A DNA stretch of 64,000 bases from contig NZ_MSIF01000014.1 in the NCBI RefSeq assembly GCF_001921215.1, positions 124,001 to 188,000 on the forward strand, written 5' to 3'. The stretch comes from Actinophytocola xinjiangensis (lineage in GTDB: Bacteria; Actinomycetota; Actinomycetes; Mycobacteriales; Pseudonocardiaceae). Position numbers and translations under genes: made by a program. Every line of letters begins with the position of its first letter. Positions within the stretch are counted from its first letter, which is position 1. The notes beneath the pieces are model-generated. The model ran no database searches. It was given only the letters and a program-made list of their open reading frames with translations, and was not told the origin of the DNA. Positions 19,570 through 24,927 of this stretch are shown piece after piece.

Positions 19570-19662
19570 GGGTTGACCGGAGTGCCTTGTCCGGCCGGGT
19601 AATGGGCGCCATTGCCCTACAGCAAGTCAGGGAGGGTCGGGCCGCGCCGCGGCCGTAAGTTG

Positions 19663-22023
19663 ATGGACCGCAAGCGCCTGCTGCGCAACCCGCTGGTGTG
19701 GATCTTGGTGGTGTTGCTGCTCTACTTCCTGATCAGCATGCTGTTCGACGACACCCGCGGTTACACCGAGGTACAGACCTCCAAGGCTGTGACCCAGATC
19801 ACGGACGGCAATGTCAAAGAGGCGGAGCAGGAGGACAAGGAGCAACGCCTCAAGCTCACCCTGCGTGAGCCGATCGAGGTCGAGGGTCAGAAGGTCACCC
19901 AGATCATCACCCAGTACCCGGCCGCCGCGTCCCTGGACATCTACCGAGCGTTGCAGAACGACGCCAAGGACGGCACGGTCTCCGACGCGAAGGTCACCCA
20001 GGAGAACTTCCTCACCCAGATCCTGATCTTCCTGATCCCGCTCGGCCTGCTGCTCATCCTCCTGATGTGGATGATGAACAACGTCCAGGGCGGCGGGAAC
20101 CGGGTGCTCAACTTCGGCAAGTCCCGGGCCAAGCAGCTGCCCAAGGACATGCCGAAGACCACGTTCGCCGACGTCGCGGGTGCCGACGAGGCGGTCGAGG
20201 AGCTCTACGAGATCAAGGACTTCCTGCAGAACCCCGGCCGCTACCAGGCACTGGGCGCCAAGATCCCCAAGGGCGTGCTGCTCTACGGCCCGCCCGGCAC
20301 CGGCAAGACGCTGCTGGCCCGCGCGGTCGCCGGCGAGGCCGGGGTGCCGTTCTACTCGATCTCCGGCTCGGACTTCGTCGAGATGTTCGTCGGTGTCGGC
20401 GCCTCGCGTGTCCGTGACCTGTTCGAGCAGGCCAAGCAGAACGCGCCGTGCATCATCTTCGTCGACGAGATCGACGCGGTCGGCCGCCAGCGCGGCGCCG
20501 GCCTCGGCGGCGGCCACGACGAGCGCGAGCAGACCCTCAACCAGCTGCTGGTCGAGATGGACGGCTTTGACGCGCGCGGCGGCATCATCCTGATCGCGGC
20601 CACCAACCGCCCCGACATCCTCGACCCCGCGCTGCTGCGCCCCGGCCGGTTCGACCGGCAGATCCCGGTCTCCGCACCGGACCTGATGGGCCGCAAGCGC
20701 ATCCTCGAGGTGCACTCGAAGGGCAAGCCGCTCGACCCGGACGCCGACCTCGACGGCCTGGCCAAGCGCACCGTCGGCATGTCCGGCGCCGACCTGGCCA
20801 ACGTGATCAACGAGGCCGCGCTGCTCACCGCCCGGCAGAACGGCACCATGATCAACGGTGCCGCGCTGGAGGAGTCGGTCGACCGGGTGATCGGCGGTCC
20901 GGCCCGCAAGAGCCGGATCATCTCCGAGAAGGAGAAGAAGATCACCGCCTACCACGAGGGCGGGCACGCGCTCGCCGCGTGGGCGATGCCCGACCTCGAA
21001 CCGGTCTACAAGCTGACGATCCTGCCCCGGGGACGCACCGGCGGCCACGCCCTGGTCGTGCCCGAGGACGACAAGCAGCTGATGACCCGCTCGGAGATGA
21101 TCGCCAGGCTGGTGTTCGCCCTGGGCGGGCGGTCGGCCGAGGAGCTGGTGTTCCACGAGCCGACCACCGGCGCGTCCAGCGACATCGAGCAGGCCACCAA
21201 GATCGCCAAGGCGATGGTCACCGAGTACGGCATGTCCGCCCGCCTCGGCGCGGTCAAGTACGGCAAGGACGAGGGCGACCCGTTCCTCGGCCGGTCCATG
21301 GGCCACGCGCCGGACTACTCGCTGGAGGTCGCGCACGAGATCGACGAGGAGGTGCGCAAGCTCATCGAGGCCGCGCACACCGAGGCGTGGGACGTGCTCA
21401 ACACCTACCGCGACGTGCTGGACAACCTGGTCATCGAGCTGCTGAACAAGGAGACCCTCCAGCGCCGCGACCTGGAGCGGATCTTCTCCAACGTCGAGAA
21501 GCGCCCCCGGATCACCGCGTTCAACGAGTTCGGCGGCCGCACGCCCTCGGACAAGCCGCCGATCAAGACCCCCGGCGAGCTGGCCAAGGAGCGCGGCGAG
21601 CCGTGGCCGCCGGTCCAGGAGGAGCCCGAGCCGACGCCGGTGCGCACCGCGCAGGGCGCGGGCGACCTGCCCGGCGGGGTGCCCCACCCGGGGACCGCCC
21701 AGCCCGGCGGCAACGGCACGGTGCCCAACGGCCTGCCGCACCCGCCGCCCGGCCCGTACGGCCAGCCCTACCCCGGCCAGCCGGGACCGGGCCCGTACGG
21801 CCAGCCCAACCCTGGCTCCGGCCCGCCGAACTACGGCGCGCCACCCGGGTGGACCCCGGCGACCTCGCCCGGCGGCAACCCAGGTCAGCAGCCGTGGCGG
21901 CCGGCGTGGGACCAGCCGCAGGACGACCGTGGTCGTGATCAGCGTGGACCGGGAGGCCCACCTGGTGGACCGACCGATCCGGATGAGCGGGGCCGGGGCC
22001 CGGAGTGGGATGCTGGGCGCTGA
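19663..22023 (+). CDS. ftsH: ATP-dependent zinc metalloprotease FtsH
   Basis: A membrane-bound AAA+ protease that degrades membrane and short-lived cytosolic proteins as a hexamer. TM1 is [19 protein letters not shown], and TM2 is [20 protein letters not shown]. The AAA part has Walker A GPPGTGKT (about residue 209), Walker [12 protein letters not shown] and the second region of homology ([20 protein letters not shown]). The zinc site HEGGH is near residue 431. The C-terminal ~120 residues are a Pro/Gly-rich tail ([15 protein letters not shown] repeats) typical of actinobacteria. ATG 19663 (MDRKRLLRN) is chosen; a TTG at 19612 would add 17 basic residues. The ribosome site is weak. folE begins 15 bp after the stop. 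Confidence 0.96.
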
Positions 22024-22038
22024 CGCCCGGAGGCACAG

Positions 22039-23196
22039 TTGACGGCTGACAGCTCGACCGGCGGCCCGCTGTATCACCACGACAGCGGGTCCGTTCCGGT
22101 GTTCGACCACGCCCGCGCCGAGAAGGCCGTGCGGGAGCTGCTGCTGGCCTGCGGCGAGGACCCCGACCGCGAGGGTTTACAGGACACCCCGGCCAGGGTC
22201 GCTCGCGCCTACCTGGAGATGTTCGCCGGCCTGTACACCGACCCGGACACGGTGCTCGACAAGACGTTCGACGAGTGCCACGACGAGTTGGTGCTGGTCA
22301 CCGACATTCCCACGTACTCGACGTGCCTGCCGGGGCGTCAACCGGTCGACGCGGTCGGCGGGCCGTGCGACGCCGCCGACGTGCGGGTCGGTGACCGGCT
22401 GTGGACCCTGGCCGAGGGCCGCGCCGAGACGACCACCGTCACCCGGATCACCACCCGCCCGGCGCGCCAGCTGGTCGAGGTGGTCACCGACGGCGGCAGC
22501 TTCGTCGTCACCCCCGACCATCCGCTGGCCACCCCCGACGGCTGGGCCGAGGCGGCCGGCGTGGCCGGCACCGCCATCGAGTGGACCGAGCCCGGCGCGC
22601 TGGCCTCGCGCCCGCTGTCGCTGGCGCTGCCCCGCCGCCGCCCGGTCGAACCGGCCGGCGGCGACGACTGGTGGCTGCGCCACGGGTTCGCCAAGGAGTC
22701 CCACCACACCGAGCTGGCCGAGTCCCGCTGGCTGCCGGTGACCACCGTGCGCCCGTTCGAGTCGCCGGGCGACTCGCCGTTCACGGTCTACAGCTTCACC
22801 TGCGACCCGCACCCCACGTTCCTGGTCGCCGGCCACCTCACGCACAACTGCGAACACCACCTCGTCCCCTTCCACGGTGTCACCCATGTGGGGTACATCC
22901 CGAACGTGAAGGGCAAGGTCACCGGCCTGTCGAAGCTGGCGCGCCTGGTCGACCTGTACGCCAAACGCCCGCAGGTCCAGGAACGGCTGACCTCCCAGAT
23001 CGCCGACGCGCTGGTCCGCAAGCTGGAGCCGCGCGGGGTGATCGTCGTCGTCGAGGCCGAGCACCTGTGCATGGCGATGCGCGGCATCCGCAAGCCGGGC
23101 GCGCGCACCACGACCTCGGCGGTGCGCGGCATGCTGCGCTCGTCGGCCACCTCCCGGTCCGAGGCACTGGACCTGATCCGCGGCCGGACAAGGTGA
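22039..23196 (+). CDS. folE: GTP cyclohydrolase I, interrupted by an in-frame mini-intein
   Basis: FolE converts GTP to 7,8-dihydroneopterin triphosphate, the first step of folate synthesis. The frame encodes 385 residues, far above the ~200 usual, because a 175-residue intein (residues 96-270) is inserted. The two exteins join as [18 protein letters not shown], giving a normal 210-residue enzyme. Zinc ligands are the Cys and second His of CEHH, plus the Cys of [13 protein letters not shown] 22039 is the start, behind CCCGGAGG. The C-terminal extein contains [18 protein letters not shown] codon occurs at residue 47. The stop overlaps the folP GTG by 4 bp. Active FolE requires splicing, because the intein sits at a catalytic zinc cysteine. 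Confidence 0.94.
22324..22848 (+). mobile_element. Mini-intein in FolE (no homing endonuclease)
   Basis: The inserted 175 residues have all splicing motifs. Block A starts with Cys1 in [11 protein letters not shown], followed by [12 protein letters not shown]. Block B is [16 protein letters not shown] with Thr63-x-x-His66. Block F is [16 protein letters not shown]. Block G is HLTHN, giving penultimate His174 and terminal Asn175, with Cys as the +1 extein residue. There is no room for a LAGLIDADG endonuclease and no such motif, so it is a minimal, probably immobile intein. Its codon use and GC content match the host gene, suggesting long residence. The insertion precedes the invariant CEHH zinc motif, a typical highly conserved active-site insertion point. 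Confidence 0.93.
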
Positions 23197-24053
23197 TCCC
23201 GGTGCAGCCGGCGCCGCATCCGGGGCTGCCGCGCCCTGGCCGGTGCGCCGTGGTCGGCGTGCTGAACGTGACCCCCGACTCGTTCTCCGACGGCGGCCGC
23301 TACCTGGACCTCGACGACGCCCTCGAACACGGCCTGTCGATGTGGACGGCCGGCGCGGACCTGATCGACGTCGGCGGCGAGTCCACCCGGCCTGGCGCGG
23401 CGAGGGTCGACGCGGCCACCGAGATCGAGCGGGTGTTACCGGTGATCAGGGACCTGTCGTCGGCCGGCGTGGCGGTCAGCGTCGACACCACCCGCGGCGA
23501 GGTGGCCGAGGCCGCCGTCGGCGCCGGTGCGACGGTCGTCAACGACGTCTCCGGCGGCCTGGCCGACCCGACGATGGCCAGTGTCGTCGCGGCGGCCGGC
23601 GTGCCGTGGATCCTGATGCACTGGCGCGGCCACAGCGACCACATGGACTCGCTCGCCAGCTACACGAACGTGGTCACCGATGTGCGTGACGAGCTGGTTG
23701 CCCGGGTCGACACGGCGGTGGCGGCCGGTGTGGACCCGTCGGCGCTGGTGCTCGATCCCGGTCTCGGTTTCGCCAAGCGCGCCGCCCACAACTGGACGTT
23801 GTTACGCCACCTGGACGTGCTGCGGGCGTTGGGTTTCCCGGTGCTGGTAGGCGCGTCCCGCAAACGTTTCCTGGGGTCGTTGCTGGCCGACAAGGAAGGC
23901 AACCCCCGCCCACCCGAAGGCCGCGAGGACGCCACGGCGGCGATCTCGGCGCTGGTGGCCACCGCCGGCGCCTGGGGCGTCCGTGTCCACGACGTCACCC
24001 GATCGTTGGACGCCGTTCTGGTGGCCGAAGCCCTCCAGGGAGACTCCGAGTGA
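23193..24053 (+). CDS. folP: Dihydropteroate synthase
   Basis: Joins p-aminobenzoate to the pterin pyrophosphate; the target of sulfonamides. The 286-residue product has the family hallmarks [51 protein letters not shown] and [28 protein letters not shown]. The TIM-barrel length is standard. GTG 23193 overlaps the folE stop (GTGA); GTG 23202 is an alternative. Two TTA codons are present (residues ~82 and ~204). It ends overlapping folB. The sequence looks like the active FolP1-type enzyme rather than the FolP2 paralogue. Confidence 0.96.
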
Positions 24054-24433
24054 CCGACCGCATCACGCTGACCGGCCTGCGGGTACGCGGCCACCACGGC
24101 GTCCTCGCGCACGAGAAGCGCGACGGCCAGGACTTCCTGGTCGACGTCACGGCGTGGATCGACCTGGACCGGGCCGCCGAGACCGACGACGTGGCCGACA
24201 CCCTCCACTACGGAGAGCTGGCGCAACGCGTCGCCGAGATCGTCGCCGGCCCGCCGAGGAACCTGATCGAGACGGTCGGCGTCGACATCGCCGACCAGGT
24301 GATGACCGACGAGCGCCTGCACGCCGTCGAGGTCACCGTGCACAAGCCCAACGCCCCCATCCCGCTGACGTTCGCCGACGTGTCGGTCACCGTCCGCCGC
24401 TCCCGCCGGGGCGGACGGGGCGGCCGGGGATGA
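24050..24433 (+). CDS. folB: Dihydroneopterin aldolase
   Basis: Cleaves dihydroneopterin to 6-hydroxymethyl-dihydropterin. The 127-residue product is standard. The family start [29 protein letters not shown]-like [14 protein letters not shown], and [15 protein letters not shown] are clear, with catalytic lysine in [21 protein letters not shown]. An Arg/Gly-rich C-terminal tail ([12 protein letters not shown]) follows. GTG 24050 overlaps the folP stop by 4 bp and its own stop overlaps folK by 4 bp, so the operon is tightly coupled. Confidence 0.96.
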
Positions 24434-24927
24434 CCCGCGCGGTCCTGTCCATCGGCTCCAACCTGGGCGACCGCCTGGCCAACCTCCGCCTGGCCACCAC
24501 CGGCCTGGCCGACTCCCTGGTGGCCACCTCCCCGGTCTACGAGACGAAGGCCTGGGGCGTGACGGACCAACCCGACTTCCTCAACGCGGTCGTCGTCGTC
24601 GACGACCCCGACGCCGACGAGTGGACCTGGCTCCACCGGGCCCAGACCCTGGAAGGTGAGGCGGGCCGGGTCCGCACCCGACACTGGGGCCCGAGGACGC
24701 TGGACGTCGACGTGGTCACTGTGGACGGTGTGACCAGCGACCACCCGGACCTGCTGCTGCCCCACCCCGGCACCCCCGAACGCGCCACCGTCCTGATCCC
24801 CTGGCTGACGATCGACCCGGCCGCCGTCCTTCCCGGACACGGCCCCGTCACGTCCCTCGTGGACGCTCTCCCCGCCGACGCCGTCGCCGACGTCCACCTG
24901 CGACCCGATCTCTCCCTGGCTCGCTGA
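24430..24927 (+). CDS. folK: 2-amino-4-hydroxy-6-hydroxymethyldihydropteridine pyrophosphokinase
   Basis: Pyrophosphorylates 6-hydroxymethyl-dihydropterin using ATP, the step before FolP. The 165-residue product contains [39 protein letters not shown], and the metal-binding [14 protein letters not shown] with [17 protein letters not shown] 24430 overlaps the folB TGA. It completes the set folE-folP-folB-folK, which makes the pterin branch of folate synthesis; glyA, which uses folate, lies upstream in the window. Confidence 0.96.

Follow-up and report, generated by a model that had tools for sequence, protein, structure and literature searches.

Organization of the folE locus

The locus raises the question of what a 175-residue insert is doing within the reading frame of a GTP cyclohydrolase I gene (folE), and where it came from. 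The window, i.e., the whole 64,000-nucleotide stretch of Actinophytocola xinjiangensis DNA that was analyzed, contains folE at 22039-23196 (+ strand) as a single open frame of 385 amino acids with a TTG start codon; in Actinophytocola gossypii (L003), a TTG start is located at the equivalent place, with a similar GGAGG ahead of it. The insert comprises codons 96 to 270 (22324-22848) and lies between DIPTYST and CEHHLVPF, directly before the Cys of the latter. On either side of it, the sequence matches GTP cyclohydrolase I, the match being split in two (Pfam, 2e-68; NCBIfam TIGR00063 folE, 1.1e-64). The GC content is 0.764 for the insert versus 0.690 for the exteins, and the corresponding GC3 values are 0.971 and 0.946. 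The gene order is ftsH-folE-folP-folB-folK, followed by a DUF3180 gene; ftsH upstream of folE was also found beside a stand-alone relative of the insert, as described below. The features are as follows.

19612-22023, + strand: ftsH, upstream of folE (Pfam Peptidase_M41 and AAA)
22039-22323, + strand: N-extein of FolE, 95 codons, TTG start, ending with DIPTYST (PF01227 positions 2-71)
22324-22848, + strand: FolE mini-intein (almost certain assignment), 175 amino acids (alignment, profile matches, predicted fold, conservation)
22324-22326, + strand: Cys1, putative first splicing nucleophile, block A (invariant in alignment A1; 41/41 intact inteins)
22510-22521, + strand: block B TPDH, intein residues 63-66 (alignment A1; T-x-D-H in 41/41)
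22600-22662, + strand: poorly conserved linker, intein residues ~93-113, presumed place of the lost LAGLIDADG domain (alignment gap versus L009-L011; pLDDT below 50 at residues 97-113)
22801-22803, + strand: block-F Cys160, invariant (alignment A1; intact-intein set)
22843-22848, + strand: His174 (penultimate) and Asn175 (terminal), block G (alignment A1; intact-intein set)
22849-22851, + strand: +1 Cys, putative second nucleophile, at a zinc-ligand position of FolE (aligned to residue 110 of the E. coli enzyme 1fbx; Cys in 41/41)
22849-23196, + strand: C-extein of FolE including stop codon (PF01227 positions 68-178; frame; alignment to 1fbx)
23202-24927, + strand: folP, folB, and folK, the remainder of the folate cluster (Pfam Pterin_bind, FolB, HPPK)

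A preliminary description of this DNA had named a second intact folE in the genome, with this one non-functional, among the observations that would speak against a splicing insert. A profile search of the 9.5-Mb genome revealed none, the sole FolE match being the split one, and FolE2 was likewise absent by a profile search that was positive in 5 of 14 control genomes. Since neither a second FolE nor FolE2 is present, making FolE should need splicing in this organism.

Identification of the insert as a class-1 mini-intein

When searched alone, the insert weakly matched Vint of Pfam (0.0011) and the Rv2578c intein of NCBIfam (0.028), with scores under the cut-offs of these profiles, while the sole intein match among PDB sequences was at chance level (E 1.8). 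The profile search proposed in the preliminary description thus returned matches of the expected Hint type, but at scores too weak for a single sequence to serve as proof; it is the relatives that make the intein identity clear. A scan of named genomes led to ten fetched loci, and in nine of them an insert is present at exactly this FolE site (Actinophytocola, two; Crossiella, two; Actinokineospora, three; Prauserella; Thermomonospora). Three of these inserts (L009, L010, and L011) are 322 to 324 residues long and have LAGLIDADG matches; the other six have 163 to 181 residues. The tenth locus (L012, Caulobacterales) was set aside, as neither FolE nor an intein was found around the match when read in the match frame.

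Alignment A1, comprising 10 sequences, has the invariant residues C1, T63, D65, H66, C160, H163, H174, and N175. Six of the 10 match Pfam Intein_splicing (best 1.3e-4) and three, all of full length, match LAGLIDADG_3 (best 1.2e-7). The window copy had no LAGLIDADG match in Pfam, and the domain is missing when it is aligned with L009-L011, in agreement with the earlier statement that no endonuclease is encoded. The AlphaFold2 model of the insert has a mean pLDDT of 72, with values below 50 for the linker and the last 12 residues. Comparison with PDB folds gave 240 matches, and the 50 listed were all inteins, intein-like proteins, or Hedgehog Hint domains.

The insert therefore combines what is characteristic of a class-1 intein: an N-terminal Cys, a block B of the form T-x-x-H, a His-Asn end, a +1 Cys, a Hint fold in the predicted model, and an in-frame position at a conserved host site for which uninterrupted alleles occur elsewhere (unsplit in G040 and read directly in G042, a sister genome). 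The absence of the endonuclease domain makes it a mini-intein. The exception is block F, which usually reads V-Y-D in class-1 inteins, with Asp (alternatively Cys) preferred but not required as the fourth residue; here it reads T-V-Y-S-F, with Ser157 at the fourth position and Cys160 three residues on. The first residue of the C-extein, the +1 Cys, aligns with residue 110 of E. coli FolE (1fbx). We take Cys110 to be a zinc ligand of the E. coli enzyme and Cys78 of Listeria FolE to be its equivalent. PMC6718149 describes Listeria Cys78 as a canonical zinc-site cysteine. The placement at the zinc cysteine and the complete set of splicing residues (Cys1, TPDH, His-Asn, +1 Cys), both claimed beforehand, are supported, the former by the alignment with the E. 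coli enzyme and the latter also by the conservation of these residues in relatives inserted at the same site.

From these features, 22324-22848 almost certainly is a class-1 mini-intein in FolE that splices itself out. Cys1 of the translated protein would activate its junction with Thr95, the N-extein would then move onto Cys+1, and cyclisation of Asn175, assisted by His174, would free the intein. The joined product would be a FolE of 210 amino acids with the +1 Cys as its zinc ligand. We infer splicing of the window protein from the conserved chemistry and the dependence on a single FolE. According to the preliminary description, GTP cyclohydrolase I is not known to host inteins, and in the open-access literature searched no FolE intein was found; PMC3322345 and PMC3087415 deal with inteins in genes other than GTP cyclohydrolase.

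Distribution and decay of FolE inteins

FolE was found in 386 of the 390 genomes of the family. The intein profile matched 60 of these 390, with 42 strong matches (E 2.5e-56 or better), counts that, as in the other surveys, are lower bounds; weak matches in long frames, in this survey as in those of the class, genus g71 (see below), and the phylum, could represent other inteins or else Hint domains. Together with the degenerate copy in G157, the strong matches give 43 occupied genomes, in 41 of which the FolE profile is split into two pieces at positions 66-75. The two others, G114 and G157, differ because they are damaged. The survey of FolE in the family, suggested at the outset, thus revealed both uninterrupted and intein-split alleles. 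Within Actinophytocola, four of six genomes are occupied (G000, which is the window genome, G041, G043, and G044), the inteins of G041 and G043 being identical to those of L003 and L004, while G040 and G042 have an uninterrupted FolE. A class-wide sample of 394 genomes contained no further strong in-frame FolE intein, and a phylum sample of 198 genomes yielded one case in another class (L126 in G1259), full length and at the same site.

Duplicate removal left 41 distinct intact inteins (17 mini and 24 full length), to which L042 and L126, both full length, add up to 43 (17 mini and 26 full length). Cys1, T-x-[DE]-H, the terminal His-Asn, and the +1 Cys are kept in 43/43. Specifically, T-x-D-H occurs in 41/41, the pattern used for these leaving Cys1, His-Asn, and the +1 position unconstrained, and L042 and L126 have T-P-[DE]-H plus Cys1, His-Asn, and the +1 Cys. 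Changes between the mini and the full-length form number five on the intein tree and six on the extein tree. The two trees agree only in part (Mantel rho 0.34), and part of the disagreement may reflect low extein signal. In L040 (G252), the first LAGLIDADG motif of a full-length FolE intein has Tyr where others have the catalytic Asp; judged by its sequence, this endonuclease is probably dead, though still undeleted. In Crossiella, L005/L032 and L010/L014, which come from two species, differ in having a mini- and a full-length intein, respectively, with exteins 98.4% identical and shared intein parts 77% identical, which could reflect either a recent loss plus fast change or a replacement. Searches of phages and viral contigs with the intein gave no relative, and a plasmid search with the whole protein returned 242 records; as coverage of the protein stayed below 80% in all of them, no intein-bearing FolE was seen on plasmids.

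Another near-complete FolE is present in 25 of the 43 occupied genomes and absent from 18. Damaged intein-bearing copies were found in three genomes: G144 (L054) has a frameshift in the intein, G157 (L055) has lost Cys1 and is truncated, and in G114 (L029) the N-extein is in another frame; such frameshifts may be sequencing errors. All three belong to the 25 genomes with another, intein-free FolE (3/25 versus 0/18, numbers too small for significance). These copies, together with the weak scores of the window sequence alone, lend some color to the notion that the window insert does not splice and that its folE is dead or yields cleaved halves, as in bacterial intein-like behavior. The serine in block F (V-Y-S), the weak model at the last 12 residues, the partial disagreement of the intein and extein trees, and the broken inteins of G144 and G157 likewise speak against the account of a splicing mini-intein. 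Given that the splicing residues are complete, that the window genome lacks both FolE2 and a further FolE, and that each damaged copy is accompanied by an intein-free FolE, we regard a non-splicing insert as very improbable.

For three Actinophytocola pairs, dN/dS was 0.27 to 0.40 for the intein and 0.07 to 0.09 for the exteins. These values bear on the proposal that the mini-intein is kept as a regulator, with conditional splicing (responding to zinc or to oxidation of Cys1, Cys160, or Cys+1) controlling folate synthesis. The zinc-ligand position of the +1 Cys, the persistence of mini-inteins in Actinophytocola and Actinokineospora, and the purifying selection in the computed pairs all accord with it, as does the mycobacterial DnaB intein, which according to PMC7360933 is inhibited by zinc bound to the catalytic Cys118. 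However, purifying selection is expected anyway, because the sole FolE must splice, the intein is absent from two of the six Actinophytocola genomes, and an insertion beside catalytic residues is usual for inteins. We consider such regulation unlikely.

The FolE intein family instead behaves like a homing parasite, as suggested by its patchy presence, several mini/full changes, and endonuclease-bearing relatives. The ancestor of the window copy would be a homing intein in FolE whose LAGLIDADG endonuclease presumably cleaved intein-free folE genes at the insertion site. In its lineage, the endonuclease would have been lost and splicing retained, the latter as would be expected for want of a further GTP cyclohydrolase I. 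On the sequence, fold, conservation, distribution, selection, and allele linkage computed here, we assign a probability of roughly 93% to the overall account of a splicing class-1 mini-intein derived from a LAGLIDADG homing intein, with the opposite outcome, a stand-alone endonuclease, in a Streptomyces-like genus.

A stand-alone form in a Streptomyces-like genus

The search of the 394 class genomes also revealed six genomes of one large, probably Streptomyces-like genus, here termed g71, with intein matches in frames of their own. In g71, an uninterrupted folE is followed by an ORF of ~330 codons that is homologous to the whole intein, and the gap between the two is 58 to 78 nt in 17 of 19 measured cases (36 and 231 nt in the others). 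A survey of 353 g71 genomes matched 44, of which 24 cover nearly the whole model, including G532 with an in-frame stop; these counts are lower bounds, as only the best few candidates per genome were scored. The loci returned by the survey (L066-L095) adjoin folE in 30 of 30 cases (28 read, two by coordinates) and include six decayed copies. G784, unmatched in the survey, has a short remnant. No splicing-dead stand-alone form was found by title among the matches listed for the open-access literature.

Among ORFs of more than 300 codons, 19 were caught by the pattern, and all 19 lack Cys1 and the block-B His; the terminal His-Asn is absent from 17/17 stand-alone ORFs with a complete C end. The Asp positions of the LAGLIDADG motifs, which we take to be catalytic, are both kept in 17/17 stand-alone and 3/3 intein rows of alignment A3 (20/20). 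Omega is 0.19 for the endonuclease part and 0.35 and 0.31 for the Hint parts (33 unsaturated of 171 pairs). The endonuclease part of the stand-alone ORF is thus under purifying selection, and more strongly so than the Hint parts. The model of the stand-alone protein (pLDDT 87) has endonuclease-bearing VMA inteins and PI-SceI as its best PDB matches (E down to 1e-14), with a whole-chain TM of only ~0.4. Because the intein and stand-alone forms lie on two sides of one branch, a single exit from the gene is enough to explain them. Plasmid searches with the stand-alone protein and its locus gave no match, and no zinc finger was present among the Pfam matches (E 0.01) of 20 A3 members. In L081 (G820:C197:2905591-2907525), a full-length stand-alone ORF is followed downstream by a second endonuclease fragment, decayed and encoded on the other strand; by analogy, this arrangement is perhaps a cluster as in WHO elements.

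In the leader between folE and the ORF (L066-L086), a hairpin is predicted over the ribosome site in most loci and over the start codon in several, with varying sequence. The RNAalifold consensus has 7 pairs only, 4 of them with compensatory changes. Folding was better than that of shuffled sequences in six of nine leaders (z -2.4 to -4.2) and not in three (-0.9, -1.1, and +1.1), and an Rfam search of four stand-alone loci gave nothing at gathering thresholds. The modeled hairpin is a possible translational silencer or folE terminator.

Linkage of the stand-alone ORF to a folE segment

From the intein site to the stop codon, g71 folE exists in two discrete versions, here called L and V. We compared 28 ORF-bearing folE genes of the 30 loci (L071 and L077 were missed by the pattern) with 29 ORF-free ones (32 genomes taken in the order of their handles, 31 with FolE, 30 loci, L125 being set aside for its remnant). 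With the ORF, 26/28 are of the full L type, L087 is mixed, and L091, whose ORF is decayed, is of the V type; without the ORF, 23/29 are V and 6/29 L. The eight signature positions were picked from the compared sequences, so that 26/28 and 6/29 are no independent test, and the Fisher value of the linkage (2e-8) is affected by the same choice and is uncorrected for relatedness. When set by one position, the label still divided the folE 3' tree just once. The residues at the intein site differ as well: Y/F-S-T^C, as in intein hosts, in 16/24 V-type and V/M-S-L^C in 20/34 L-type sequences.

The L/V segment is scattered on the flank-gene trees as if at random. The number of L/V changes is 13 on the DUF3180 tree (shuffles 13.9) and 11 on the ftsH tree (12.5), with 41 loci each, although these two flanks agree with one another (Mantel 0.83, 28 loci). 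With 58 loci, it is one on the folE 3' tree and seven on the folE 5' tree (shuffles 18.7). GC3 does not distinguish the types in codons -85 to -40 (L 0.920 versus V 0.906, p 0.75); from codon -40 on it is 0.847 for L versus 0.935 for V, and in the 3' part 0.831 versus 0.922 (p 3e-6). For pairs with DUF3180 at least 88% identical (56 same-type versus 44 different-type pairs, 31 loci), identity in codons -84 to -56 is 91.4% versus 91.2%, and in the folE 3' part 86.0% versus 78.7%. Of the unlike pairs, the two with the most similar flanks (L101/L068 and L122/L072) have identities of 92 to 93% for ftsH, 94% for the first block of folE, 71 to 82% for the remaining folE, and 91 to 95% for DUF3180. 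Three more unlike pairs have a similar or weaker dip (76 to 88% in those blocks), and same-type pairs range from 80 to 100% by block. Such a pattern would be expected from co-conversion flanking a break at the former intein site.

Seven L-type loci are without a full ORF: six have no ORF-like DNA by blastn, and L125 carries a remnant, the only clear one in a search muddied by decayed entries that extend into the next gene. A search of the fetched flanks for a duplicated folE fragment gave nothing beyond two short self matches at chance level. Both findings would fit the view that the L and V segments stem from ordinary horizontal transfer or from balanced alleles of old age, with the stand-alone ORF as a passive passenger without cutting activity. 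Some L/V signal is also borne by the folE 5' part, so that a larger piece may move, same-type pairs dip to 80 to 85% in places, and well-supported flank branches give only 1 and 5 independent pairs, too few for significance. Against this view stand the lower omega of the endonuclease part, the invariant catalytic Asp columns of A3, the linkage of ORF and segment, and the fact that the segment covers the ancestral intein site, and we consider it unlikely.

The pattern is as expected, at the level of sequence, from replacement of a host segment together with the element. In g71, the intein would have left the gene, lost splicing, and kept its endonuclease, so as to lie now just downstream of an uncut folE. 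The folE linked to the ORF would have a changed recognition site, and homing would then carry over the endonuclease along with the folE segment linked to it; that homing took place, that the endonuclease cuts, and that the linked allele resists are our inferences. It is likely that the g71 form is a bacterial counterpart of WHO, i.e., a splicing-dead intein outside the gene that spreads as a probably hairpin-silenced LAGLIDADG endonuclease, dragging along an altered folE segment and leaving a chimeric folE, with the window copy as its mirror image.

The window copy would add a folate enzyme to the intein hosts, and one stock would have decayed by two routes, with the endonuclease lost and splicing kept in the gene, or splicing lost and the endonuclease kept outside it. 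If this is true, a WHO-like element at bacterial folE means that such elements are no yeast oddity, and provides a tractable system for testing origin, target recognition, and resistance. Since folE of g71 bacteria looks mosaic, the finding also matters for users of folE as a phylogenetic marker.

Comparison with known systems

The FolE intein shares with the class-1 inteins Mtu RecA, Pho RadA, and Ssp DnaB the Hint fold (predicted here), Cys1, T-x-x-H, His-Asn, and Cys+1, the in-frame position at a catalytic residue, and the occurrence of endonuclease-bearing and endonuclease-lacking alleles. It differs in its host, a folate enzyme unreported as such in the open-access literature searched, and in block F, which has Ser for the usual Asp and an invariant Cys160.

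The stand-alone form resembles yeast WHO/HO (PMC7282813) in being an extein-free LAGLIDADG protein of intein origin next to an intact host gene, with splicing residues lost, a discordant and apparently replaced host-gene segment, and an altered site in the linked allele. In contrast to WHO, which is located at FBA1, the g71 form is bacterial and located at FolE, shows neither a duplicated 3' fragment of the host gene in the fetched downstream flanks nor a zinc finger among its Pfam matches, and has a predicted leader hairpin over the ribosome site; its cleavage activity is putative. From T4 segB and mobE of phage Aeh1, the g71 form differs in being chromosomal and intein-derived, a LAGLIDADG protein with a dead Hint part that would presumably cut folE. 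Like these phage genes (PMC2988022), it is a free-standing endonuclease gene close to the site it presumably targets, with co-conversion of flanks and an RNA hairpin predicted to cover the ribosome binding site.
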